64,000 bases of DNA from the NCBI RefSeq assembly GCF_003634555.1, contig NZ_RBKS01000001.1, forward strand, positions 2,604,001 through 2,668,000, read 5' to 3'. The stretch is from Frondihabitans australicus. Its GTDB lineage: Bacteria; Actinomycetota; Actinomycetes; Actinomycetales; Microbacteriaceae. The position numbers and the translations under genes are program-made. The notes beneath the pieces were generated by a model that was not told where the DNA came from, made no database searches, and saw only the letters and a list, made by a program, of their open reading frames with translations. This document shows, piece by piece, positions 33,135 through 47,991 of the stretch. How positions within the stretch are numbered: the first letter of the stretch is position 1; every line of letters begins with the position of its first letter.

Positions 33135-34688
33135 TCAGCGGACGTAGTGGACGACGTTCGTCCGCGAGAAGTGCCACTGGCCGTCGATGTGGAAGCCGGC
33201 GGCAGCGAGCTCCTTCGTGACGAGGGGGCGCTGGTCGGCACTCGTGCCGGTGACGAGCCATACGTCGCGCGCGGCCACGGTCTTGCCGACGACGGCAGAG
33301 AGCGGGTACTGGGTGGACCACATGTGGTCGGTCCGGTCGCCCGGCGTCTTCAGCGTGATGTCGTCGAGACCGACGAACGCGGTCGGATACGTCTGCGCGA
33401 TGACGCGCGACGAGGTGAGCGGGTGGCGGTCGACGGGCCCGTAGACGACGTCCGAGACGACGCCGGCCGGCTCCAGCGACCGCTGCGTGGCGATGAGGGC
33501 GGCGACCTGATTCCACGCTGACGAGTCCTTCGCGGTCACCTGGCGCTGGGCGACGTAGGTGGGCGCCGAGAGCACCACGAGCACGGCCAGGGCGGCAGCC
33601 GCCAGGCGCCGACGGGGCAGCGCCGCGAGGGCGTACCCGACGAGGAGTGCTGCGCCGGGCGCGGCGAACGTGAGGTACCGCGGCGAGTACATCGGCGAGT
33701 GCACGACCGACTCCGCGACCAGCAGCACCGTCGGCACGAGCATCCAGGGCAGCGCGACCCCGAGAAGCTCGAGACCGGCGGGGCGACGAGAGCGCAGGAT
33801 CAGCGCGACGGCCACCACGACGGCGGTCCAGGCCGCCACGGCGAACCCCGGCGACCCGATGAACCACTGCGTCTGCAGCACCTCGGCGACCGTGTGGACG
33901 CTCGGCCGGGGAATCCAGTGGATCTGCCCGGACTGCCGTGACGCTTCCGCGGCGAGAGGGACGACGGCCACGAGAGCGATGCCGGCAGAGACCGCCGACC
34001 GCAGCAGCCGGATCCTGCCGCCCTTCGCCTCACCGGCGAGGCGATCGCGGCGAGCACAGGCGAGCGCGGTCACGGCGTGCGCCACCACGAGCAGCGCGAG
34101 GTAGAGGAAGACGGCGGTGCCCAGGATCGCGAGCGCCGCGTAGACGACCCACCCTCGTCGGCTCCGGGTCGGCGCGCGCCACGCGCGAAGGTAGGCGATG
34201 GTCATGGCGACGGCGAGCAGGGTCCCGACCGCGAACGACCGCCCCTCGGTTCCCATCCAGGTCACGCGCGGGAACAGGCAGAACGCCACGCCCGCCAGGA
34301 AGCCCACGCGGCGACCGGCGAGCATGCGCCCGAGCACGACGATCAGTGCGGCGGCCGCACCGGTGGCGAGAGCACTCGGCAGGCGGAGTGTGGTCGGGGT
34401 GTAGCCCACGAGGTCGAACCAGACGTGCATGCCGGCGTAGTAGGTGGCGTGCACGATGTCGACGGTGGTGAGCATGCGGGCGAGGGCGCTCCACGAGCGG
34501 GTCGCCGAGACGACGGTCGCGGACTCGTCGTACCAGAGCGACGGAACCCACGAGAAGGCGAACGCGAGGGCAGCGCCGACGACGCCGACGATCAGTGCGT
34601 CGAGCGTGCGGCGGGCCGGACGGGCCCCGGGCGCGCGGACGGCCGCGAGCGGGCTGCCGGTCGCGGTCGCGGCTGCGGTCGTCGTCAT
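33135..34688 (-). CDS. GT-C type membrane glycosyltransferase (ArnT/PMT-like)
   Basis: The 517-aa polytopic protein starts at ATG 34688 (MTTTAAATATG). The first extracytoplasmic loop after helix 1 contains the SLWYDESATVVSATRSW segment. Its acidic D-E pair is the catalytic signature of GT-C enzymes that use polyprenyl-phosphate sugars. About ten helices follow, then a soluble C-terminal domain (about 400-517) that faces outward. The likely role is transfer of a sugar from a lipid donor to cell-wall polymer or protein. It is divergent from the VIT-family gene. Confidence 0.78.
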   Translation of the reverse strand: MTTTAAATATGSPLAAVRAPGARPARRTLDALIVGVVGAALAFAFSWVPSLWYDESATVVSATRSWSALARMLTTVDIVHATYYAGMHVWFDLVGYTPTTLRLPSALATGAAAALIVVLGRMLAGRRVGFLAGVAFCLFPRVTWMGTEGRSFAVGTLLAVAMTIAYLRAWRAPTRSRRGWVVYAALAILGTAVFLYLALLVVAHAVTALACARRDRLAGEAKGGRIRLLRSAVSAGIALVAVVPLAAEASRQSGQIHWIPRPSVHTVAEVLQTQWFIGSPGFAVAAWTAVVVAVALILRSRRPAGLELLGVALPWMLVPTVLLVAESVVHSPMYSPRYLTFAAPGAALLVGYALAALPRRRLAAAALAVLVVLSAPTYVAQRQVTAKDSSAWNQVAALIATQRSLEPAGVVSDVVYGPVDRHPLTSSRVIAQTYPTAFVGLDDITLKTPGDRTDHMWSTQYPLSAVVGKTVAARDVWLVTGTSADQRPLVTKELAAAGFHIDGQWHFSRTNVVHYVR

Positions 34689-34868
34689 GACGCGGGTCTC
34701 GTGTGGTCGATCATCGTGGGCAACCCTCTCGGGAACACCGCAAGATTCGCGCAAGAATGCGCGGTCGATCGCCCGTGATCGTTCGAGTCCTCACATGTTC
34801 GAGGCGGACACCGGCCAGACCGGGGAGCCGTGGTGGCATGCCGGTCGCCGACGCGCGATGCTGACTCC

Positions 34869-35600
34869 ATGACGGATTCGACCGCGTCGTACGTCGCCCA
34901 CGACGGCGAAGAGCACGACGGCAACCTCGCCGGCCGACTGAACTGGCTGCGCGCCGGGGTCCTCGGAGCGAACGACGGGATCGTGTCGGTGGCCGCGATC
35001 GTCGTCGGCGTGGCCGGCGCGACGCCCGCCACGGCGCCGATCGCGACCGCCGGCGTCGCCGCCCTGGTCGGCGGCGCCATCTCGATGGCCCTCGGCGAGT
35101 ACGTCTCCGTGAGCAGCCAGCGCGACACGCAGCGCGCGCTCATCGAGAAGGAGCGCCGAGAGCTCGCCGACGATCCCGACGTGGAGCTCGAGGAGCTGAC
35201 CGGCCTCTACGAGGAGCGCGGGCTCAGCCGTTCCACGGCCGAGCTCGTCGCCCGCGAGCTCACGGAGCACGACGCCCTCCGTGCACATCTCTCGATCGAG
35301 CTCGGCATCGACGAGGACGACGTGGTGAGCCCCTGGCGTGCGGCCGGTGCCTCGGCGCTGGCGTTCACCATCGGCGCCCTGCTGCCCCTCCTGGCGATCC
35401 TGCTGCCACCCGCGGCCGCGCGCGTGCCCGTCACCTTCGCCGCCGTCCTCGTCGCGCTGGCCCTGACCGGCCGGATCTCCGCCCGCCTGGGCGGCGGCTC
35501 GGCCCTCCGAGCGGTCGTCCGCGTCGTCGCGGGAGGCGTGCTCGCCCTGGCGGCGACGTTCGCGATCGGCACGCTGCTGCACACGGGCGGTCTCGCGTGA
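34869..35600 (+). CDS. VIT1/CCC1-family iron/manganese transporter
   Basis: The 243-aa protein starts at ATG 34869. It opens with the family signature LNWLRAGVLGANDGIVSVAAIVVGVAGA (two segments, LRAGVLGANDGIVS and AAIVVGVAGA) and SMALGEYVSVSSQRD. The cytosolic metal-binding helical insert is at about 90-150 (EKERRELADDPDVELEELTGLYEERG). Three C-terminal helices follow, making five in total. Relatives export or sequester Fe2+ and Mn2+. The response-regulator gene starts only 13 nt downstream, so co-transcription with the two-component/ferric-reductase cluster is likely and suggests a metal-redox theme. Confidence 0.87.
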   Translation: MTDSTASYVAHDGEEHDGNLAGRLNWLRAGVLGANDGIVSVAAIVVGVAGATPATAPIATAGVAALVGGAISMALGEYVSVSSQRDTQRALIEKERRELADDPDVELEELTGLYEERGLSRSTAELVARELTEHDALRAHLSIELGIDEDDVVSPWRAAGASALAFTIGALLPLLAILLPPAAARVPVTFAAVLVALALTGRISARLGGGSALRAVVRVVAGGVLALAATFAIGTLLHTGGLA

Positions 35601-35613
35601 CGGGCGGTCCGGC

Positions 35614-36297
35614 ATGAGCAGGATCCTCGTCGTCGACGACGATCCCGAGATGCGCGAGCTCGTCGCCGCGAGCCTCGCCGACGAGGGCCACGACGTCACA
35701 GCCGTCGGCGACGGGGTCGCCGCCCTCATCGAGGCGGGCCGACGGACGTTCGACGCCGCGGCCGTCGACGTGATGCTGCCCGAGATGACCGGGTTCGAGA
35801 TCTGCCGGAGGCTGCGGGAGAGCGGGCGGACGTTCCCGGTGATCCTGGTGACGGCCCGCGACGCGGTCGACGACCGCATCTTCGGGCTCGACTCGGGGGC
35901 CGACGACTACCTCACGAAGCCGTTCTCGCTGGCCGAGCTGAACGCGCGGATCCGCGCCCAGCTGCGACGGCAGGCGACCGTCCCGACGGCGCCCGCCATG
36001 GTCGAGGCGGGCGACGTGCAGCTCGACACGACCGCAGTTCGGGCGCGCATCGGCGGGCGGACCGTCGCGTTCAGCGTGAAGGAGTTCTCGCTCCTCCGCT
36101 TCCTGCTCGTCGAAGCGCCCGAGCCGGTCACCCGAGCCGCGATCCTCACCGAGGTCTGGGGCTCGGCCGAGCACTTCGACCCGACCATCGTCGACCAGTA
36201 CGTCAGCTACGTCCGCCGGAAGCTCGCCGGCGCGGCATCGACCGTCACCATCGCGACGGTCCGGGGCGTGGGCTACCGGGCCGAGGCTCCGGAGTGA
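35614..36297 (+). CDS. OmpR-family response regulator (metal/redox cluster)
   Basis: The 227-aa protein has a receiver domain at 1-115: DDD at residues 7-9, phospho-Asp in AAVDVMLPEMTG, Thr in LVTARDA and Lys in YLTKPFS. A PhoB-type winged helix follows from about 130 (FSVKEFSLLRFLLVEAPEPVTRAAILTEVWG, split here before PEPV). Its partner is the histidine kinase starting at 36294, which overlaps by GTGA. The likely targets are the ferric-reductase-like operon immediately downstream and perhaps the VIT gene upstream. Confidence 0.9.
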   Translation: MSRILVVDDDPEMRELVAASLADEGHDVTAVGDGVAALIEAGRRTFDAAAVDVMLPEMTGFEICRRLRESGRTFPVILVTARDAVDDRIFGLDSGADDYLTKPFSLAELNARIRAQLRRQATVPTAPAMVEAGDVQLDTTAVRARIGGRTVAFSVKEFSLLRFLLVEAPEPVTRAAILTEVWGSAEHFDPTIVDQYVSYVRRKLAGAASTVTIATVRGVGYRAEAPE

Positions 36298-37748
36298 CGC
36301 CGTCGGCCTGGCCGATCCGCGTGAGGATCACCCTCGGCAGCCTTCTCGTAGCGGGGATCGTCCTCGCGGGCGTCGCCGGTCTCATGGCGTTCCAGATCCG
36401 CTCCACGACGAACCAGAGCGAGACGACTCTCGCGAACAGCGACATCGCCCCATACATCGCCGATCTCCGCAACAATCCGGGTGAGAAGCCCGACACGCCG
36501 TCGTCCGGAATCCTCGTCGCGATTCGCGCCGAGTCGGGCGCCTTCCTCCTGAACACCCTGCCGACCGGCCTCCAGCGGAATCTCGACGACCGCGACCTGC
36601 ACGACCGCGACTTCGTGCGGCTTCCCGGTGCGGCGAGCGACGCCCAGGCCCCGACCCGGCGCGTGTCGAGCGGCGGAACGACCTACGTCGTCGTCGAGCG
36701 GCACCTGGCGACCTCGCACGGCGACTACACGCTGTGGGGCGCTCGCAGCACCGCGTCGGGCGATCTCACGATCGCGGCCCTCGACCGGTCGCTCGCTCTC
36801 GGACTCGTTCTGGCGCTGGCGGGATTCGGCGCGGCCGCGTGGCTGCTGACCACGCTCTCGCTGCGGCCCGTGCGCCGGATGGCGCAGTCGGCCGAACGCC
36901 TCAGCCGCGACGACACCGGGCAGTCGCTGCCGGTCCCTCCCGGGCGCGACGAGCTGGCCACCCTGGGGCGGACCCTCAACGCCTTCATCGACCGGCTCCG
37001 CAGAAGCGCCGACCACGAACGGCAGATGGTGTCCGACGCCAGCCACGAGCTGCGCACGCCGCTCGCCGCCCTCACGGCGCGACTCGAGCGCGCCCACCGG
37101 TCGGCGGGCGACGCCGCCGCACTCGAACGCGAGATCGACGCGGCGCAGACGTCGGTCGCCCGCCTCACCGAGCTGACGACCGTGCTGCTCGAGCTGTCGC
37201 GCCTCGACGCACCCGGCGAGGCGTCGACGGTGGGGACGAGGGCGCAGGAGCAGGCGGAGACCGCCCCGCCCGAGAGTCTCGTGGCCGAGCTCCTGGAGTC
37301 CGTCGATCGCGCCCGCGTCAGCGACGGCCACGGGTCGGTGACGATCGACTTCGAGGTGCCCGACTCGACCGACGACGGGATGCGGTACGACATCGCCCCG
37401 GCGGCGTTCGGACGGATCGCCGACAACCTGCTGTCGAACGCGGTGACCTTCAGCCCGGAGCAGGGGACCGTGACCGTGGTGCTCGATCAGCGGGACGACG
37501 GCGCCCTGCACCTGGTCGTCCGCGACGAGGGCCCGGGCGTTCCGGGCGACTTCCTGCCGATCGCCTTCGACCGATTCACTCGGGCGGACGAGTCGCGTCG
37601 CCGGATCCGCGGCGGGAGCGGCCTCGGCCTGGCGCTCGTGCGCGGTCTGGCCGTGCGCGCCGGTGGCGAGGCTCGTCTCGCGAACGCCGCCGGCGGTGGC
37701 GCGGAGGCGATCGTGATTCTTCCCGCGACGACCTCGAACAACATGTGA
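36294..37748 (+). CDS. sensor histidine kinase (metal/redox cluster)
   Basis: The 484-aa kinase starts at GTG 36294. Helix 1 is at about 10-30 (ITLGSLLVAGIVLAGVAGLM) and an extracytoplasmic sensor loop spans about 31-165. Helix 2 is near 168-188, then HAMP. HisKA carries the phospho-His in VSDASHELRTPLAALTARL. HATPase has N-box IADNLLSNAVTFS, G1 RDEGPGVPGDF and G2 GGSGLGLALVRGL. The sensor loop contains several His/Asp residues (DRDLHDRDF), which could be a metal site, though that is speculation. Confidence 0.9.
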   Translation: MTPSAWPIRVRITLGSLLVAGIVLAGVAGLMAFQIRSTTNQSETTLANSDIAPYIADLRNNPGEKPDTPSSGILVAIRAESGAFLLNTLPTGLQRNLDDRDLHDRDFVRLPGAASDAQAPTRRVSSGGTTYVVVERHLATSHGDYTLWGARSTASGDLTIAALDRSLALGLVLALAGFGAAAWLLTTLSLRPVRRMAQSAERLSRDDTGQSLPVPPGRDELATLGRTLNAFIDRLRRSADHERQMVSDASHELRTPLAALTARLERAHRSAGDAAALEREIDAAQTSVARLTELTTVLLELSRLDAPGEASTVGTRAQEQAETAPPESLVAELLESVDRARVSDGHGSVTIDFEVPDSTDDGMRYDIAPAAFGRIADNLLSNAVTFSPEQGTVTVVLDQRDDGALHLVVRDEGPGVPGDFLPIAFDRFTRADESRRRIRGGSGLGLALVRGLAVRAGGEARLANAAGGGAEAIVILPATTSNNM

Positions 37749-37804
37749 GTTCTCGAACGCCGCCGACACCCGCTCCCGGGCATTCGCATAGATATCGAAC
37801 TCAC
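37745..37804 (+). promoter_or_regulatory. inverted repeat before the ferric-reductase-like gene
   Basis: GTGAGTTC (37745-37752, overlapping the kinase stop) and GAACTCAC (37797-37804) are perfect 8-bp complements flanking the 99-bp gap. GTTC-TC-GAAC lies at 37749-37758. This is the only sizeable gap in the cluster and the natural place for a response-regulator site or an internal promoter. No clear -10/-35 pair is visible. Confidence 0.35.
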
Positions 37805-37847
37805 GATGGTCTCCACCACGACGCACAGAGCGCCCCCAGGAGACCCC

Positions 37848-39299
37848 ATGACGACCACCGCCGCCGCCACGCCGGCCGAGCGAACGGCCACCGGCCGTCG
37901 CCGACCTCCCGCGCAGCAGATCGCCGTCGACGCGCTGCGGCACCGGCGTGAGCATCGGCGTCGGAGCACCGCGGTGGATCTGCTCGCGATCCTGGTCTGG
38001 GTCTCCGTCGCGGTCGCCGTCGCGCTGTACCTGGCCTCGACCGGGGCCCACGACCTGACGAGCGCCTCGGCCGTCGTCACGGCTCTCGGCATCGTCGCCG
38101 GGCTCGCCGCCACCGACCTCGTGCTCGTCATGCTGCTGCTGGCCGCGCGAGTCCCGCTCGTCGACCGGGTCTTCGGGCAGGATCGGGCGATCGCCGTCCA
38201 CCGGTCGCTCGGCAAGCCCGTGCTGTACCTCATCCTCGTGCACGCCCTGCTGATCACCGTCGGCTACGGACTGGCGGATCGGACCAGCCCGATCGGCGAG
38301 ACCGTGTCGCTCTTCACGACGATGCACGACATGCCGCTGGCCTATCTGGCGCTCGCGCTGTTCGTCGCCGTGGTCGTCACGTCGCTCGTGGCCGTGCGGC
38401 GGAAGCTGCCGTACGAGGCCTGGCACGTGATCCACCTGCTGAGCTACGCGGCGGTCGCGGTGGCGCTCCCCCACCAGCTCAGCGTCGGCAGCGTGTTCGC
38501 GAGCGACACCTGGCAGCGCGTCTACTGGATCACGCTCTACGTCGTCGTCCTCACGGCCGTCGCTGTCTATCGCTTCGCACTGCCCCTCTACCTCAGCTTC
38601 CATCACCGGCTGCGGGTCGTCTCGGTCGAGGCGATCGCTCCCGGCGTGTGGTCGATCCACCTCTCGGGAGTCGACCTCCACCGCCTCGGAGTCCAGGGAG
38701 GCCAGTACGGCATCTGGCGATTCTGGACCGCCCGCACCTGGTGGCACGCGCACCCCGTCTCGTTCTCGGCCGTTCCCGGCACCGACCGCGCACGCATCAC
38801 CGTCCGCGATCTGGGCGCAGGATCTCGGCGACTCGGCTCCATCCGCCCGGGCGCCCGCGTCTCCCTCGAGGGCCCCTACGGCCTCTTCACCCGACGAGCC
38901 CGGACCGCGCCGTACCTCACCCTCATCGCCGCCGGCATCGGCATCACGCCGGTGCGGGCCCTGCTCGAGGACTCGCCGCTGCGACCGGGCGAGGCGACCG
39001 TGCTGCTCCGGGGTTCGGATGCCGCCCAGCAGTACCTCTGGCGGGAGGTCGCCGACCTCGCGGCAAGGAACGGCGCCGAGGTGTTCGCCATGGTCGGGCC
39101 GCGGCCGAGCGGGTTCGACGTGTGGCAGTCCGCCGACGACCACCGGCGCGGTGTGACGCTCGCGTCGACGTTCCCGCACCTGCTGGAATCCGACGTCTAC
39201 ATCTGCGGCCCGCAGGCCTGGGCAGACCTCGTCGCGCGCGACGCGCGGCTCGCCGGGGTGCCCGAGCACCAGATCCACCAGGAGAGGTTCACGTCATGA
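37848..39299 (+). CDS. ferric-reductase-like transmembrane oxidoreductase
   Basis: The 483-aa protein starts at ATG 37848 with CCAGGAG 6 nt upstream. The membrane half (about 55-250) has six helices of the ferric reductase/NADPH oxidase type. Haem-ligand histidines occur in AVHRSLGKPVLYLILVHALL, TTMHDMPLAYL and EAWHVIHLLSYAAV. The cytosolic half is a ferredoxin-NADP reductase module: flavin-binding HPVSFSAVPG, GPYGLFTRR, NAD(P)-binding AAGIGITPVRALL and the C-terminal VYICGPQAWADLV. It should pass electrons from NAD(P)H via FAD and haem across the membrane. Its stop overlaps the next gene (ATGA). Confidence 0.9.
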   Translation: MTTTAAATPAERTATGRRRPPAQQIAVDALRHRREHRRRSTAVDLLAILVWVSVAVAVALYLASTGAHDLTSASAVVTALGIVAGLAATDLVLVMLLLAARVPLVDRVFGQDRAIAVHRSLGKPVLYLILVHALLITVGYGLADRTSPIGETVSLFTTMHDMPLAYLALALFVAVVVTSLVAVRRKLPYEAWHVIHLLSYAAVAVALPHQLSVGSVFASDTWQRVYWITLYVVVLTAVAVYRFALPLYLSFHHRLRVVSVEAIAPGVWSIHLSGVDLHRLGVQGGQYGIWRFWTARTWWHAHPVSFSAVPGTDRARITVRDLGAGSRRLGSIRPGARVSLEGPYGLFTRRARTAPYLTLIAAGIGITPVRALLEDSPLRPGEATVLLRGSDAAQQYLWREVADLAARNGAEVFAMVGPRPSGFDVWQSADDHRRGVTLASTFPHLLESDVYICGPQAWADLVARDARLAGVPEHQIHQERFTS

Positions 39300-39829
39300 G
39301 AGCACGAGCGGTTGCAGGTGGAGTCGTGGCGTCGGCCGCGGTCCTGGCCGTCGGCTGGCAGATCGGCGCGGGGCAGGTCGCGGCCACGAGCGGCACCGCC
39401 TCGGGGGCGGGGTCGTCCACGGCGACCGGGACGTCGGGCTCGAGCGGATCGACGGGAGCGACGGGCTCGAGCGGCTCGTCCTCGCCGTCGGCGACCGCGG
39501 CCCCCTCCCCGTCCTCGTCGGCGTCGTCCGGCACCTCCTCGAAGTCCTCGGTGTCGGGCACCTACGAGGGCACGACCGCCGAGACCCAGTTCGGCCCCGT
39601 GCAGGTCGAGATCGTCGTGCAGGCGGGCACCATCACGGACGTCAAGGCGCTGCAGCTCACGGATCAGGGCGGCCGCTCGGTCGAGATCAGCGCCTACGCC
39701 GCGCCGATCCTGCGCCAGGAGGCCCTGAAGGCGCAGTCCGCGAACATCCAGTCCGTCAGCGGCGCGACCTACACCAGCGAGGGCTACGTCACCTCGCTCC
39801 AGGCGGCGATCGACAAGGCGGGGCTGTGA
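39296..39829 (+). CDS. exported FMN-binding domain protein, flavinylation substrate
   Basis: The 177-aa protein has an N-terminal signal or anchor segment (VAGGVVASAAVLAVGW). A flexible Ser/Thr/Gly/Ala-rich linker spans about 30-87. A small FMN_bind domain follows (about 88-177), ending with SGATYTS at 155-161. In this family ApbE attaches FMN covalently to the second Thr (here T160) of the S-G-A-x-x-T motif. The linker would let the flavin domain reach across the wall. It is translationally coupled to the reductase upstream (ATGA) and ApbE downstream (GTGA), so the three form one electron-transfer unit. Confidence 0.88.
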   Translation: MRARAVAGGVVASAAVLAVGWQIGAGQVAATSGTASGAGSSTATGTSGSSGSTGATGSSGSSSPSATAAPSPSSSASSGTSSKSSVSGTYEGTTAETQFGPVQVEIVVQAGTITDVKALQLTDQGGRSVEISAYAAPILRQEALKAQSANIQSVSGATYTSEGYVTSLQAAIDKAGL

Positions 39830-40590
39830 CCGACGCGGCGACCCACGTCTTCGCGACCATGGGCACGACAGTGAGCATCCGCTTCGCCAACGGCGGCCCC
39901 GAACGTCAGGCGCTCGAACGGGTCGAGCAGGTCTTCGCCTCGTTCGACCGGGAGTTCAGTCTCTACGACCCGATGTCGCCCCTCAGCGCGGTGGCGCGCG
40001 GCGAGCTGACGCTGGCGGAGTCCGGCGACAGAGTCCTCGACGCCTACGCCACCGCGATCGACTGGCGCAACGCGACCGCGGGCGCCTTCACTCCGCACCG
40101 CCCCGACGGTGTCGTCGACCTCTCCGGCGTGGTCAAGGCCCTGGCGATCGCGGAGGCCGGCGTCGAGCTCGACCGGCTCTCGGGCTCCTGGCTGCTCAAC
40201 GTCGGCGGGGACGTGCTCGCTCGCGGCAGCACCGCGAAGGGCCAGCCGTGGCGCGTCGGCATCGTCGACCCCGAGCACCGCGACCGTCTGGCCGGCGTCG
40301 CCGAGCTGACCGGCGCCCGTCGCGCCCTCGCGACCTCCGGCGTCGCCGAGCGCGGCGAGCACGTCTGGCGGCACGGCGACGACTCGCTGGTGCAGGTGAC
40401 GATCGCGGCCGACGACATCGTCACGGCCGACGTGCTCGCCACCGCGATCCTCTCCGGAGGGCTGTCCGAGCTGGATCGTCTCACGGCGGCCCACGCCGTC
40501 GACGTGCTCGTGTTCGACCGCGAGGGCGAGGCGCGGGCGACGCCGGGTGCGCGCGAGTGGGTGTCGCCGGATCCTGCGACCCGACCCTAG
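39826..40590 (+). CDS. apbE: FAD:protein FMN transferase
   Basis: The 254-aa protein starts at GTG 39826. It has the ApbE hallmarks MGTTVSIRF, FDREFSLYDPMSPLSAV, the FTPHRPDGVVDLSGVVKALAI segment, LLNVGGDVLARG, and the Mg2+-binding region near TADVLATAILSGG. No lipoprotein signal is seen, so it may act in the cytosol or be exported another way. Its obvious substrate is the neighbouring FMN_bind protein. It is somewhat shorter than typical ApbE (about 300-350 aa). Its stop overlaps the convergent SRPBCC gene by 4 nt. Confidence 0.92.
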   Translation: MTDAATHVFATMGTTVSIRFANGGPERQALERVEQVFASFDREFSLYDPMSPLSAVARGELTLAESGDRVLDAYATAIDWRNATAGAFTPHRPDGVVDLSGVVKALAIAEAGVELDRLSGSWLLNVGGDVLARGSTAKGQPWRVGIVDPEHRDRLAGVAELTGARRALATSGVAERGEHVWRHGDDSLVQVTIAADDIVTADVLATAILSGGLSELDRLTAAHAVDVLVFDREGEARATPGAREWVSPDPATRP

Positions 40591-41060
40591 GTGGGGTCGC
40601 CCTCGACGACCGCCTTGAGCCGCCAGAGCTGGCCCACCTCGTCGCGCATCGTGCGCGAGACCAGGGGGCGCAGGAGCCGCGCCATCCCGCGCGGCTCCAC
40701 CTCGAGGGCGAACGAGAGCACGCACGTCCCTCCCGGCCGGGCCGTGATCGAGTAGCGCCCGCGAGGCCGGACGGGGCCTGCGAGCACACGGAACCGCAGC
40801 TCCTGCGGCCTGGTCGCCTCCGTGATCTCGTAGTCGCCGGCGATGTCGCGTCGACCCGGGCCGATCAGGATCTGACGGTAGATCGCCCCGACCTGCCCGT
40901 CGCCGCCGCGTTCCAGCGCGATCGAGCGCACGGCGGGACGCCAGAGGGCGTTGTTCATGCCGTCGGCGACGAAGTCGAACACCGCGTCGGCATCGCGGTC
41001 GATGATGACGTGGTTCTCGGCGCGCAGGAGCTGCCCGATGGTCTCGACGGTGGCGGTCAT
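40587..41060 (-). CDS. SRPBCC (START-like) family protein
   Basis: The 157-aa single-domain protein opens with LRAENHVIIDRDADAVFDFV, the typical first strand and helix of polyketide-cyclase/dehydrase-like SRPBCC folds. Alternating strands and a C-terminal helix follow (LLRPLVSRTMRDEVGQLWRLK). It binds hydrophobic small molecules in a cavity; the ligand is unknown. It is convergent with apbE. Confidence 0.8.
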   Translation of the reverse strand: MTATVETIGQLLRAENHVIIDRDADAVFDFVADGMNNALWRPAVRSIALERGGDGQVGAIYRQILIGPGRRDIAGDYEITEATRPQELRFRVLAGPVRPRGRYSITARPGGTCVLSFALEVEPRGMARLLRPLVSRTMRDEVGQLWRLKAVVEGDPT

Positions 41061-41150
41061 GGGGGCAGGCTCTCGCCCGCGCTCCCAGAATCGCCGGAGA
41101 TTGTGTGGGCGTGCTCCTGCGGCCCGGCTTCGCCTCGCCAGCGTCGGGCG

Positions 41151-43133
41151 CTAGATGACGACGTCGCTGCCCATCGTGACCGTGCGGTTCGGCGGCAGCA
41201 TGAAGCGGGCGGCGGGGTCGGCGGCGTTGTGCGCCAGGCCGACGAACAGCCGCTTGCGCCAGCCGACCATCGCCATCTTCTTGCCCTTCTTCTTCGCCCC
41301 GACGCGCAGGCCGCCCCGCGAGATGAAGTAGGAGGCGTTCTCCATGTCGTCGGGGTCGATGTCGAGCACGTCGGCGAGGCAGGCGGCGTGGAGGGCCTTC
41401 GGCAGGTCTTGGTCGTCCGAGAAGCCGAACTTCACCGTGATGTGGTCGATGCCGTCGTCGGTGTAGCCGAGGTCGTCGCGGAAGAACGCCTTCGAGTGCG
41501 GCACGTGAGGCACGTTCGCCGTGAGCACCGACACGAGAAGCACGTGCTCGTGGATGATGTGGTTGTGCTCGAGGTTCGCCCGGAGCGCCAGCGGAGTCGT
41601 GTCTTTGCTGGGGTGCGGGAAGATCGCGACGCCCTCGACGCGCGGGATCTTCTCGGTGTTGACCTGCTCGATGAAGTCGGCGAGGGACCCCTCGAGCCAT
41701 TGGCGCTTCTGCTGCACGAGCTGACGGCCTCGCCGCCACGTCGTCATGACGGTGATCACGGCGAGCGCGATGAGCAGCGGCACCCAGCCGCCGTGGATGA
41801 TCTTCGACAGGTTGCCGGCGAGGAAGGTCAGCTCGAGGCCGCCGAAGACCACGGCCGCCGCGATGAGCTTCCAGAGCTTCCACTGCCAGAGCTGTCTCGC
41901 GACGAGCAGCAGGAGCAGCGTGTCAACCACGAGCGCGCCGGTCACCGAGACGCCGTACGCCGTGGTCAGGGCGGCCGACGAGCGGAACGCCAGCATGATC
42001 GCCATCACGCCGATGAACAGCAGCATGTTCACGGCCGGCAGGTAGATCTGGCCGCCCTCGTTCTTCGAGGTCTGGCGGATCGTGATCGGAGGCAGCAGGC
42101 CGAGCTGCACCGCCTGCCGCGTGAGCGAGAACGCACCCGAGATGACCGCCTGGCTGGCGATCACGGTCGCCGCGGTCGCGAGGATCACGACGGGCAGCTG
42201 CAGCGCGTTCGGGAACAGCATGAAGAACGGGTCCTTGGTGGCCGACGGCGTGTTGAGCACCAGCGCGGCCTGGCCGAGGTAGTTGAGCACGAGGGCCGGG
42301 AACACCACGAAGAACCAGGATCGACGAATCGGCACACGACCGAAGTGGCCCATGTCGGCGTAGAGCGCCTCGGCTCCGGTGATGGTCAGCACCACGGCGC
42401 CGATGGCGACGAAGGTGACCACGGGGTGCGCGAAGACGAACGCGATGGCCCACGTGGGCGAGATGCCCTGCAGGACGCCGGGGTGGCGGATGATGTGCGG
42501 GATGCCCGCCGCGGCGATGACGACGAACCAGAGCAGCATGATCGGGCCGAAGAGGGCGCCCACGCGGCCGGTGCCGAACCGCTGCAGCAGGAACAGGAGC
42601 ACGAGGATCACCGCGGCGATCGGCACGACGAGGTGCGAGATCGACGGCGCGGCCGTCCCGAGGCCCTCCACCGCCGACAGGACCGAGACCGCGGGGGTGA
42701 TGACCGAGTCGCCGTAGAAGAGGGAGACGCCGACGATGCCGATCACGAGGAAGATGACCGCGCCGCCACGCCGTTTCGAGTACAGACGTCTCGCCAGGGC
42801 CGCGAGCGCCATGACGCCGCCCTCGCCGTTGTTGTCGGCGCGCATGAGCACGAGCACGTACTTGAACGACACGACGATGGTCATCGACCAGAACATCATC
42901 GAGATGACGCCGTAGACGTCCTCCGGCTTCGGCTGGACGACGCCGCCGTCGATCGTGAAGACGGTCCGCAGCGCGTAGAGGGGACTGGTGCCGATGTCGC
43001 CGAAGACGACGCCGAGTGCGGCGAGCGCCAGTGCGGTGATGCTGGCGCCGTGGCCGTGTCCTCCACCGCCGGTATCGGTCGCCTCAGCGCTGGGGGCGGG
43101 AGTGCGAGTCTGGGTCACGCGTGAACTCTCCAT
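41151..43133 (-). CDS. kup: low-affinity potassium uptake protein Kup
   Basis: The 660-aa protein starts at ATG 43133 (MESSRVTQTRTP). About twelve membrane helices start at residue 30 with the family opening ALAALGVVFGDIGTSPLYALRTVF. The long cytosolic C-terminus follows from about 465. It carries K+/H+ symport across the cytoplasmic membrane. No KdpDE-type regulator is near. On the minus strand, a TATTCT box at 43182-43187 could be the -10. Confidence 0.94.
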   Translation of the reverse strand: MESSRVTQTRTPAPSAEATDTGGGGHGHGASITALALAALGVVFGDIGTSPLYALRTVFTIDGGVVQPKPEDVYGVISMMFWSMTIVVSFKYVLVLMRADNNGEGGVMALAALARRLYSKRRGGAVIFLVIGIVGVSLFYGDSVITPAVSVLSAVEGLGTAAPSISHLVVPIAAVILVLLFLLQRFGTGRVGALFGPIMLLWFVVIAAAGIPHIIRHPGVLQGISPTWAIAFVFAHPVVTFVAIGAVVLTITGAEALYADMGHFGRVPIRRSWFFVVFPALVLNYLGQAALVLNTPSATKDPFFMLFPNALQLPVVILATAATVIASQAVISGAFSLTRQAVQLGLLPPITIRQTSKNEGGQIYLPAVNMLLFIGVMAIMLAFRSSAALTTAYGVSVTGALVVDTLLLLLVARQLWQWKLWKLIAAAVVFGGLELTFLAGNLSKIIHGGWVPLLIALAVITVMTTWRRGRQLVQQKRQWLEGSLADFIEQVNTEKIPRVEGVAIFPHPSKDTTPLALRANLEHNHIIHEHVLLVSVLTANVPHVPHSKAFFRDDLGYTDDGIDHITVKFGFSDDQDLPKALHAACLADVLDIDPDDMENASYFISRGGLRVGAKKKGKKMAMVGWRKRLFVGLAHNAADPAARFMLPPNRTVTMGSDVVI

Positions 43134-43329: not shown

Positions 43330-43662
43330 ATGGAGTGGAGAGCGCTGGCGCGACGCGTGATGCGGTCGGGGCTGTGGTCGGTCGAGTCGCCGGGGTCGAT
43401 CGGCAGCGTCCGGTCGCTCGGCAGCGCGTGGTCTCTGCGGTCGCTCGGCAGCGCGGGCTCGATCGCGTCGATCGGGAGCGCCGGGAGCCTCGCCTCCATC
43501 GGCTCCGCCGGGAGCATCGCGTCAATCGGGAGCGCCGGCTCGATTCTGTCGATCGGATCCGTCGGCTGCATTCTGTCGATCGGCAGCCACGGGCGGAGCT
43601 TGGCGGTGTTCGATCGGCCGGTCGCCGGGCTCCTGCGCCGTCGCCGAGCCGACCCCGAGTAG
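43330..43662 (+). CDS. Ser/Gly/Ile nonapeptide-repeat protein of unknown function
   Basis: The 110-aa protein starts at ATG 43330 and is apparently leaderless: TAGGGT sits 6 nt upstream. Residues 20-92 are about eight copies of a 9-residue unit close to SIGSAGSIA, flanked by a short basic/aromatic N-terminus (MEWRALARRVMRSGLWSV) and an Arg-rich C-terminus (LLRRRRADPE). It has no signal peptide and no Asp, so it is not an RTX calcium roll despite the 9-residue period. Strictly spaced Ile/Leu among Ser/Gly suggests a small beta-solenoid or a tightly packed glycine-zipper membrane hairpin. I recall similar repeats in other Microbacteriaceae, but no function is known. The opposite strand is also open. 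Confidence 0.65.
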   Translation: MEWRALARRVMRSGLWSVESPGSIGSVRSLGSAWSLRSLGSAGSIASIGSAGSLASIGSAGSIASIGSAGSILSIGSVGCILSIGSHGRSLAVFDRPVAGLLRRRRADPE

Positions 43663-47041: not shown

Positions 47042-47991
47042 CGGTGCGACGCCGACGGGTCGGGCCAGGGCGCGGTCGCAGGATCGGCTGCCGCGAGCCG
47101 CGCGGCCTCCTCGTCGTCGGTGCGCCGGCGTGCTCCCGGCCACAGCCGCAAGAGGAACCAGTCGGTGTTGTTGCGCGTGGCGATGTTGAAGACGGCTACC
47201 AGGACGAGCGACGCGAACGCGGTGATCAACGCCAAGGCGCCCGGGCCGTTGAGCGTGCCGAGCACCCCGTAGAACGCGCCGAAACACAGCGCCTGCAAAG
47301 GGCCCGAAAGGATGTCGCGGAGAGCCAACCACCGCAGCGCGTCGTCCCAGACCATCTCGTCGGTGTCGCGGGTCGGGCGCCCCTGCGCGACGATCCGACG
47401 AGCCGCGACGGCGAAAGCGATCTGCCCGGCGATCGCGAGTGCGACGAGCACGATGCCGGGCACGATGAGGTGCACGCGCGACGTGCCGCCAAGGGCGATC
47501 GCCAGGCCCACCGTGACGACGGCGCAGACCGAGGCGGCGAGAGCGAGACGGCGCAGGATCGGCGCGATGTAGTCGCCCACGGAGGTCACGGTCAGCCGCG
47601 CCACCCGAGCCGCATCGTCGCCCGGACGGGGTGCGGAGGCCAGCGACACGACGATGACCCCGACGGCCGACCCGACCGCGCCGAAAGCGATCACGCCGTA
47701 GTACGCGAGGAGGATCGGGCGATGCGAGTAGGGGAGGCCCCAGCCCGGGACCGTCGAGGCGAGGAGCAGGCCGAGCGCGAGACCCGCGAGGGCACCCAGG
47801 GCGCTGGCGCGGATCCTGCGCCCCATGCGGCGGCGGAAAGCAGGGTCGAGGTCGGCGGGCACACCGATGCCGATGCGCCTGCCGGCCCGTTCGAGCGCCC
47901 ACACCTGCACGGCGGGCACGAAGGACAGCCCCGCGGTCACGGCGAGGCCGACCACCGCGATGGCCAGCAGTACGAGCAGATAGACGTCCAT
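47038..47991 (-). CDS. hypothetical multi-pass membrane protein partnered with GntR regulator
   Basis: The 317-aa protein starts at ATG 47991 with AAAGGGG 6-8 nt upstream. About seven or eight helices are predicted, including YLLVLLAIAVVGLAVTAGL, ALGALAGLALGLLLAS, VCAVVTVGLAIALGG and LIVPGIVLVALAIAGQIAF. A cytosolic loop with VARLTVTSVGDYIAPILRRL follows the middle pair. No family is recognised. The overlap with a YtrA-type GntR gene suggests envelope-stress or antibiotic-responsive expression, by analogy only. Confidence 0.7.
   Translation of the reverse strand: MDVYLLVLLAIAVVGLAVTAGLSFVPAVQVWALERAGRRIGIGVPADLDPAFRRRMGRRIRASALGALAGLALGLLLASTVPGWGLPYSHRPILLAYYGVIAFGAVGSAVGVIVVSLASAPRPGDDAARVARLTVTSVGDYIAPILRRLALAASVCAVVTVGLAIALGGTSRVHLIVPGIVLVALAIAGQIAFAVAARRIVAQGRPTRDTDEMVWDDALRWLALRDILSGPLQALCFGAFYGVLGTLNGPGALALITAFASLVLVAVFNIATRNNTDWFLLRLWPGARRRTDDEEAARLAAADPATAPWPDPSASHR

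Follow-up and report, generated by a model that had tools for sequence, protein, structure and literature searches.

How are the genes for a membrane electron chain that ends in a covalently bound flavin controlled, and why does a metal transporter gene lie beside them? Six consecutive genes in a 64 000-nucleotide stretch of the genome of Frondihabitans australicus (Microbacteriaceae; hereafter the window) raise these questions. They encode a VIT1-family transporter (VIT), a response regulator (RR), a sensor histidine kinase (HK), a membrane protein resembling ferric reductases and NADPH oxidases (NOX; hereafter FRE), a protein with an FMN_bind domain (FMN, flavin mononucleotide) and the flavin transferase ApbE. 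We consider it somewhat probable that the cluster is a two-component-controlled, NOX-type module of the MsrQ-like flavinylation systems that operates as follows.

FRE would take electrons from NAD(P)H and pass them via flavin adenine dinucleotide (FAD) and two haems across the membrane to an FMN on T158 of the FMN_bind protein, at the outer face. The compact, leaderless ApbE would attach this FMN; the simplest assumption is that it acts in the cytosol, either before the protein is exported or while export proceeds. HK would read an envelope condition and RR would bind a 15-bp site before both of two transcription units, so that transporter, sensor pair and reductase would respond together. The most likely role of VIT would be to export Fe2+ (or Mn2+) from the cytosol, and that of the chain to reduce Fe(III) at the surface. 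The proposal builds on the genes present and their conserved order, on the shared sites and on conserved residues and predicted folds; from these we infer cofactor occupancy, the electron path, regulator binding, the place of flavinylation, the acceptor and the direction of transport.

A shared candidate operator before two probable transcription units

The 15-bp site GTTCGAGNNCTCACA has exactly two exact matches in the 4.04-Mb genome, one before VIT-RR-HK and one before FRE-FMN_bind-ApbE. With one mismatch, one additional genome match appears (47889–47903), and a reversed control pattern gives two. The site was derived by comparing the two upstream regions themselves, so that its conservation is the real test. 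We accordingly scanned the genus, with R as the seventh base and one mismatch allowed, and found both sites at corresponding places in the congeners G001, G003 and G004. The sites of G002 lie before RR and before FRE, its VIT gene being ~17 kb away without a site, and G006 has the VIT-side site only, its FRE side being lost. Two unrelated matches were found in G005, which has no FRE and no close VIT. Off-locus matches numbered 0–6 per genome (6 in G001), compared with 1–5 for the reversed control. A copy of the VIT-side site of G001 itself, ATTCGAATCCTCACA, lies more than 1 Mb from its cluster (L181, G001:C1:1653076-1653090) and could be a further target of the regulator.

For more distant comparisons, two surveys were used. 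The first was sorted into 68 loci with FRE and FMN_bind (the window included), 21 other ApbE or FRE loci and 7 with neither; the flank was shorter than 5 kb in 7 of the 68. The second comprised 80 named loci kept from 273, with 15 of the 80 shorter than 16 kb. The surveys overlap, 11 of the 43 class A loci (those with a kinase of the window's class before FRE) of the second being also in the first. A palindromic form of the site, GTKYGAGNNCTCRMAC, was present at the HK end with at most three mismatches in 33 of the 43 named class A loci, compared with 2.8% of shuffles and with 2/43 for the reversed motif, and 16 of the 33 sites occupied the identical position on the HK stop codon. Upstream of the sensor operon's leading gene, the site was found with at most two mismatches in 9 of 26 loci in which VIT is first and in 4 of 15 in which RR is first (null 0.7%).

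These results suggest that VIT-RR-HK and FRE-FMN_bind-ApbE probably form separate transcription units, both controlled by the neighbouring two-component system. The sequence-only reading, made before the present analysis, had proposed a regulated electron chain and expected VIT and the reductase genes to be transcribed together. Its claim of regulation is supported by a candidate operator that occurs twice in the genome and recurs in congeners and class A loci; shared control of two probable units would take the place of joint transcription. A single operon is less likely on the evidence of the HK–FRE gap, which is kept, carries the site and often has a CATAG sequence. The gap measured 51–218 nt in 17 of 18 six-gene loci and 471 nt in the remaining one (L085), whose FRE is interrupted by a stop, and 9 of 23 loci have [CT]ATAG at 40–41 nt from where the HK stop codon begins.

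A second two-component class with a candidate operator of its own

In other genera, the trio is accompanied by a different two-component pair (class B), which in most cases is encoded downstream of ApbE, and VIT usually lies in divergent orientation to FRE. A different motif, TTTCTTCCAGCTTTCTTAG, was found before FRE with at most three mismatches in 19/19 class B, 0/43 class A and 2/17 unassigned loci; among shuffles, 5 mismatches were reached in 0.16% and fewer in none. That the operator at this promoter changes along with the regulator argues for real control of the trio by its neighbour.

The family survey supplied 44 regulators for a tree, in which all 22 members of class A fall into a single clade (support 0.967). 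Ten of the 16 that were labelled class B by score group together elsewhere, as judged by eye, and the remaining six do not; the score-based label mixed in unrelated regulators, and the 16 as a whole form no clade. The class B motif is visible by eye in the five loci inspected of these ten (L082, L084, L094, L096 and L090). The 19 loci of the operator count are named loci other than those in the tree. The tree also groups together the response regulators of L066, L074, L079 and L091, a third set encoded close to FRE-FMN_bind-ApbE.

The membrane electron chain and its flavin acceptor

An AlphaFold2 model of FRE, built from an 18-sequence alignment (mean predicted local distance difference test score, pLDDT, 82.3), has as its closest structural match the bacterial NADPH oxidase SpNOX (8qta, 8qt6, 8qq7; E 3.9e-17; template modelling score 0.78 by target length). 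The whole-chain fold is alike, although identity is 16% and the FRE locus adds an adjacent FMN_bind partner and ApbE. His118, His132, His196 and His209 are candidate haem ligands, forming the two pairs that characterize NOX enzymes and ferric reductases, and are invariant in 18/18 aligned sequences. The C-terminal NAD-binding domain PF00175 scored 19.8 bits, below its cut-off of 22; such a C-terminus is common, not universal, in MsrQ-like systems.

The window's FMN_bind protein is the only FMN_bind match in the genome. It begins with MRARA, followed by a hydrophobic anchor or signal ending in GWQIG, a Ser/Thr/Gly linker and the FMN_bind domain. Judged by hydropathy, 65 of the 68 family loci encode a hydrophobic N-terminus, the place where a target of an MsrQ-like system would carry a predicted signal peptide or lipidation; a GW motif is present in 41, and a Cys within the first 35 residues in none. 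Tat export was rejected, the RRx-hydrophobic pattern occurring in only 5/68.

The published flavinylation motif, D-x-x-[S/T]-G-A-[S/T], carries FMN on its last residue, and its seven residues are enough to make an ApbE target (PMC12052999). The window's protein reads QSVSGAT-YT, with Gln in place of the conserved Asp. The sequence-only reading had placed FMN on T160; because the published motif carries it on the last residue of SGAT, the expected acceptor is instead T158 (39767–39769). An SGAT-like motif with Ser or Thr at the acceptor position was found in 68/68 loci, and SGAT proper in 48/68. Taken with the SpNOX-like model and the four invariant histidines, this conservation supports the trans-membrane electron chain that had been proposed from the sequence. 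The chain is sound but of an already known kind, namely an MsrQ-like flavinylation system: FRE matches PF01794, and PF04205 and PF02424 are above cut-off and adjacent.

A compact ApbE without a signal peptide

The model of ApbE (mean pLDDT 92.0) has the fold of the FmnB/ApbE flavin transferases (7esb, 6nxi, 3pnd) and the same Ser-His-Asp positions. However, the window's protein has only ~250 residues and lacks a signal peptide, the middle segment (Pfam positions 75–124) and the DPxTG motif that is typical of ApbE. Its candidate triad, S171, H179 and D202, is invariant in 18/18 sequences. By motif, these residues correspond to the Ser-His-Asp of Vibrio cholerae ApbE and of FmnB (PMC12052999).

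Neither a signal peptide nor a lipoprotein signal was found in the window's ApbE, whose start overlaps the FMN_bind stop codon with no earlier in-frame ATG, GTG or TTG. Signal peptides of ApbE were judged by hydropathy and by eye, and a gene was taken to have no room for one if a stop lies within 20 codons upstream (13 loci) or the FMN_bind stop lies at most 45 nt before the ApbE start. There was no room in 59 of the 64 ApbEs of FRE and FMN_bind loci, and no signal peptide was seen by eye in the other five (L069, L080, L106, L113 and L134); hydropathy exceeded 1.6 within the first 45 residues in 2/64 (L079 and L087). The two further ApbEs of the genome likewise have no signal peptide by eye, so that no exported ApbE is evident in it.

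Exported proteins normally receive their flavin from ApbE outside the cytosol, and cytosolic ApbEs exist for cytosolic targets (PMC12052999). The earlier claim that ApbE flavinylates the neighbouring FMN_bind protein is consistent with the retained fold, triad and motif, but action outside in the usual way is unlikely because the enzyme has no signal peptide. If its target is exported, a leaderless ApbE leaves three possibilities: it attaches FMN before export, it is itself exported by a non-classical route, or it has no function. Because a seven-residue target suffices, flavinylation before export is possible, and we tentatively suggest that the compact ApbE may flavinylate its partner in the cytosol, the FMN-bearing chain then being threaded out to the wall side. 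Alternatively, ApbE could act outside after all by non-classical export, or another ApbE with an unrecognized signal could do the work. Extracytosolic flavinylation is the norm for exported proteins, and our signal-peptide calls rest on hydropathy and inspection; nevertheless, the 59/64 ApbEs without room for a signal, the two other ApbEs of the genome and a target short enough to make an unfolded substrate conceivable render this alternative rather unlikely.

Occurrence and linkage of the VIT gene

A sample of 150 genomes from the family includes 76 with FMN_bind. Among the 68 FRE and FMN_bind loci, 32 have VIT at a distance of up to 5 kb, 40 have a kinase no more than 3 kb away and 26 have both, and the order VIT-RR-HK-FRE-FMN_bind-ApbE occurs in 18. 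For a gene at 1–3 copies per genome, a rough estimate of chance linkage is <1%. The 80 named loci comprise 27 with VIT, the class A pair and FRE in order (the definition of the six-gene group there, ApbE not being required), 17 of class A in which VIT is not in place, 13 of class B with VIT and 6 without, and 6 others with VIT and 11 without. The association of VIT with the reductase trio, as assumed in the sequence-only reading, is thus partly upheld: VIT recurs in several gene orders, but is not within 5 kb in 36/68 loci. It is absent even from the locus of G002, one of four congeners having both VIT and FRE and the only one in which VIT is displaced. VIT is a frequent yet optional and movable partner. 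Clustering of the neighbouring genes yielded no further partner, no family occurring in more than 11 of the 68 loci and many clusters being spurious high-GC frames.

The cluster of G006 (L059, sorted in the first survey among the other ApbE or FRE loci) is a decayed copy. Its HK frame is broken, everything between the end of HK and the final codons of FRE has been lost, and VIT, RR, FMN_bind and ApbE are still open. This pattern fits a joint loss of sensor and reductase, or possibly an assembly error, the genome being 92% complete. A second close VIT copy with 74% identity was found in G003 (L057, G003:C2:179441-180142), FRE, FMN_bind and ApbE being unmatched in that 14-kb stretch.

Iron signals and the direction of transport

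We searched for a DtxR/IdeR-like box with the consensus TTAGGTTAGCCTAACCTAA, taken from PMC7762939. No match at three or fewer mismatches was found in the 64-kb window, and the box was rejected as a regulator of this locus and kept for its relatives. With at most six mismatches, 17 of 32 family loci have it before VIT (null 3.4%), and in 14 of these it lies 36–37 nt ahead of the start codon; among the named loci it was found upstream of VIT in 23 of 46 cases (null 4.8%), at a distance that is more variable, being measured from the profile match. Before FRE, the box was not clearly enriched (at most six mismatches in 7/66, null 5.2%). A stricter genus box precedes VIT in G001, G002, G003 and G006 and not in the window's genome (G000) or G004; other matches numbered 0–2 per genome, compared with 0–3 for the reversed control. 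The F. australicus genome encodes two DtxR-family proteins. The boxes of relatives and the published link to VIT1 (PMC8238504) speak for iron; the position of the box fits repression or activation and so agrees with uptake as well as efflux.

Four glutamates of the window's VIT (E95, E98, E106 and E109) align with the metal-binding stretch of EgVIT1 (6iu3), and we take them to be the counterparts of its cytoplasmic metal-binding residues. By this analogy they favour loading from the cytosol, that is, export by VIT, and VIT1 transports out of the cytosol. The VIT1 domain is also shared with MbfA, which is described as an exporter from the cytosol (PMC7762939). The N-terminal ferritin-like domain of MbfA is not in the window's VIT (32.4 bits compared with a cut-off of 450), and the latter differs from EgVIT1 and MbfA in being a bacterial protein encoded inside a two-component operon.

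Weighing the alternatives

Several observations weigh against the mechanism that we propose. VIT is unlinked in 36/68 loci, FMN_bind and ApbE stay open in G006 without an intact FRE, and the VIT-side operator is far less conserved than the FRE-side operator (9/26 at up to two mismatches). At two mismatches, GTTCGAGNNCTCACA had four matches in the window, not a significant excess over the 1.93 expected. No DtxR-like box precedes VIT in the window, and Meheust et al. propose iron uptake via VIT1, the opposite direction (PMC8238504). According to the latter view, the system would be assimilatory, the chain reducing Fe(III) outside and VIT importing the resulting Fe2+. In addition to the published association and proposal, this is consistent with the box at 36–37 nt before VIT in 14 of 17 loci, where a regulator could repress, and with the actinobacterial FMN_bind gene sifE, which belongs to a cluster that iron limitation induces (PMC5449479). 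The four retained cytoplasmic glutamates, the exporter MbfA, the general direction of VIT1 and the missing box in the window argue otherwise, and we regard uptake as doubtful.

It is improbable, although conceivable, that the chain serves another acceptor such as oxygen, quinones or oxidized wall proteins, with HK sensing oxidative or envelope stress and VIT a mere regulon mate. An NADPH oxidase as the closest fold of FRE, the trio without VIT in more than half of the loci and the lack of an iron-specific domain in HK (none was seen by domain search and alignment) are in line with this possibility; the recurrence of VIT in several gene orders and the iron-type boxes before about half of these genes are not. 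Finally, the displaced VIT of G002 and the many unlinked loci could mean that VIT and the two-component genes are chance neighbours of the reductase trio, but recurrence in several orders together with shared, class-specific operators makes this very improbable.

Gene calls and other features of the genome

The six genes, all on the forward strand, were confirmed by open reading frames and Pfam domains at the positions of the sequence-only reading, and the junctions (13 nt, GTGA, 99 nt, ATGA and GTGA) were reproduced exactly (Table 1). The host genome is a single contig of 4,036,723 bases. The extracytoplasmic sensor region of HK spans ~130 residues as judged by eye. None of the six proteins exceeded an NCBIfam cut-off among the matches listed (the best 25 of 97 for RR and the best 25 of 74 for HK); among these, RR scored highest with PhoB, RpaB, CztR/SilR/CopR and MtrA models, and HK with MtrB and CztS/SilS/CopS models. 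No RNA element above the gathering score was detected in 34000–41500, and promoter and terminator scans of the locus gave no match.

Table 1. Genes and candidate sites of the cluster (window positions)
Feature	Positions	Strand	Basis
Candidate operator GTTCGAGTCCTCACA upstream of VIT-RR-HK	34781..34795	+	Exact match; same place in congeners G001, G003, G004 and G006
VIT1-family transporter, 243 aa	34869..35600	+	PF01988, 1.2e-66, 225.1 bits (cut-off 28.1); EgVIT1 6iu3 match, E 1.5e-19
OmpR-type response regulator (RR), 227 aa	35614..36297	+	PF00072 and PF00486 (Response_reg and Trans_reg_C); class A clade
Sensor histidine kinase (HK), 484 aa	36294..37748	+	HAMP, HisKA, HATPase_c; alignment of relatives
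Candidate operator GTTCGAGAACTCACA, overlapping HK stop codon, upstream of FRE-FMN_bind-ApbE	37744..37758	-	Second exact genome match
-10-like CATAG, 41 nt past first base of HK stop	37787..37791	+	No consensus promoter match
Ferric-reductase/NOX-like FRE, 483 aa	37848..39299	+	PF01794 Ferric_reduct, 1.6e-15, 57.7 bits (cut-off 28)
FMN_bind protein, 177 aa	39296..39829	+	PF04205, 6.7e-9
Flavinylation motif SGAT (S155-T158)	39758..39769	+	Translation; published motif (PMC12052999)
Compact ApbE, 254 aa, without signal peptide	39826..40590	+	PF02424, 2.3e-24; FmnB/ApbE fold

Elsewhere in the genome, a leaderless ApbE lies beside a protein that has both an NQR2/RnfD/RnfE domain and an NAD-binding domain (3866500–3881000, L146), a pair that resembles the NQR/RNF-like class of Meheust et al. 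(PMC8238504); FMN_bind was not detected there. A third ApbE, with an HILDP motif, lies beside a small protein weakly matching the FRE profile (37.6 bits; 3500000–3514000, L145). The window also contains a complete 16S rRNA gene on the reverse strand (377–1897), because of which its first 2 kb are low in G+C, and a tandem array with a 27-bp period and copies 75–82% alike (43411–43587).

Relation to known systems and significance

Meheust et al. (2021, PMC8238504) describe MsrQ-like flavinylation systems as widely conserved across Actinobacteria and count VIT1 in 153 of 1797 clusters. These systems have in common with the window a Ferric_reduct membrane protein, an FMN_bind protein and ApbE, but the excerpts of that paper mention neither an adjacent two-component system with shared operators nor a leaderless ApbE. 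SifABCDE of Bifidobacterium likewise has an actinobacterial FMN_bind protein, SifE, in its iron-limitation cluster, although with ABC-type transporter parts instead of FRE, and SifA is likened to a cation antiporter (PMC5449479). Among open-licence papers, titles and abstracts revealed none that deals with this combination of six genes, with its operators or with the flavinylation of an exported FMN_bind protein in the cytosol.

The locus is thus a regulated variant of a known system, whose surprising element is the leaderless compact ApbE. Added to what is known are the shared candidate switch sites, the second regulator class, the leaderless ApbE, the expected acceptor T158 and the optional VIT. 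The locus can be viewed as a small regulon with two sites, one regulator and two output units, and a second regulator class with its own operator provides independent support for placing the reductase and, often, the transporter in one response. Extracytosolic electron transfer through flavins is widespread, but few tests in Gram-positive bacteria have addressed how it is regulated and where flavinylation takes place. With the leaderless ApbE, the place of FMN attachment becomes directly testable; cytosolic flavinylation before export, if true, would reverse the order established for exported ApbE targets.

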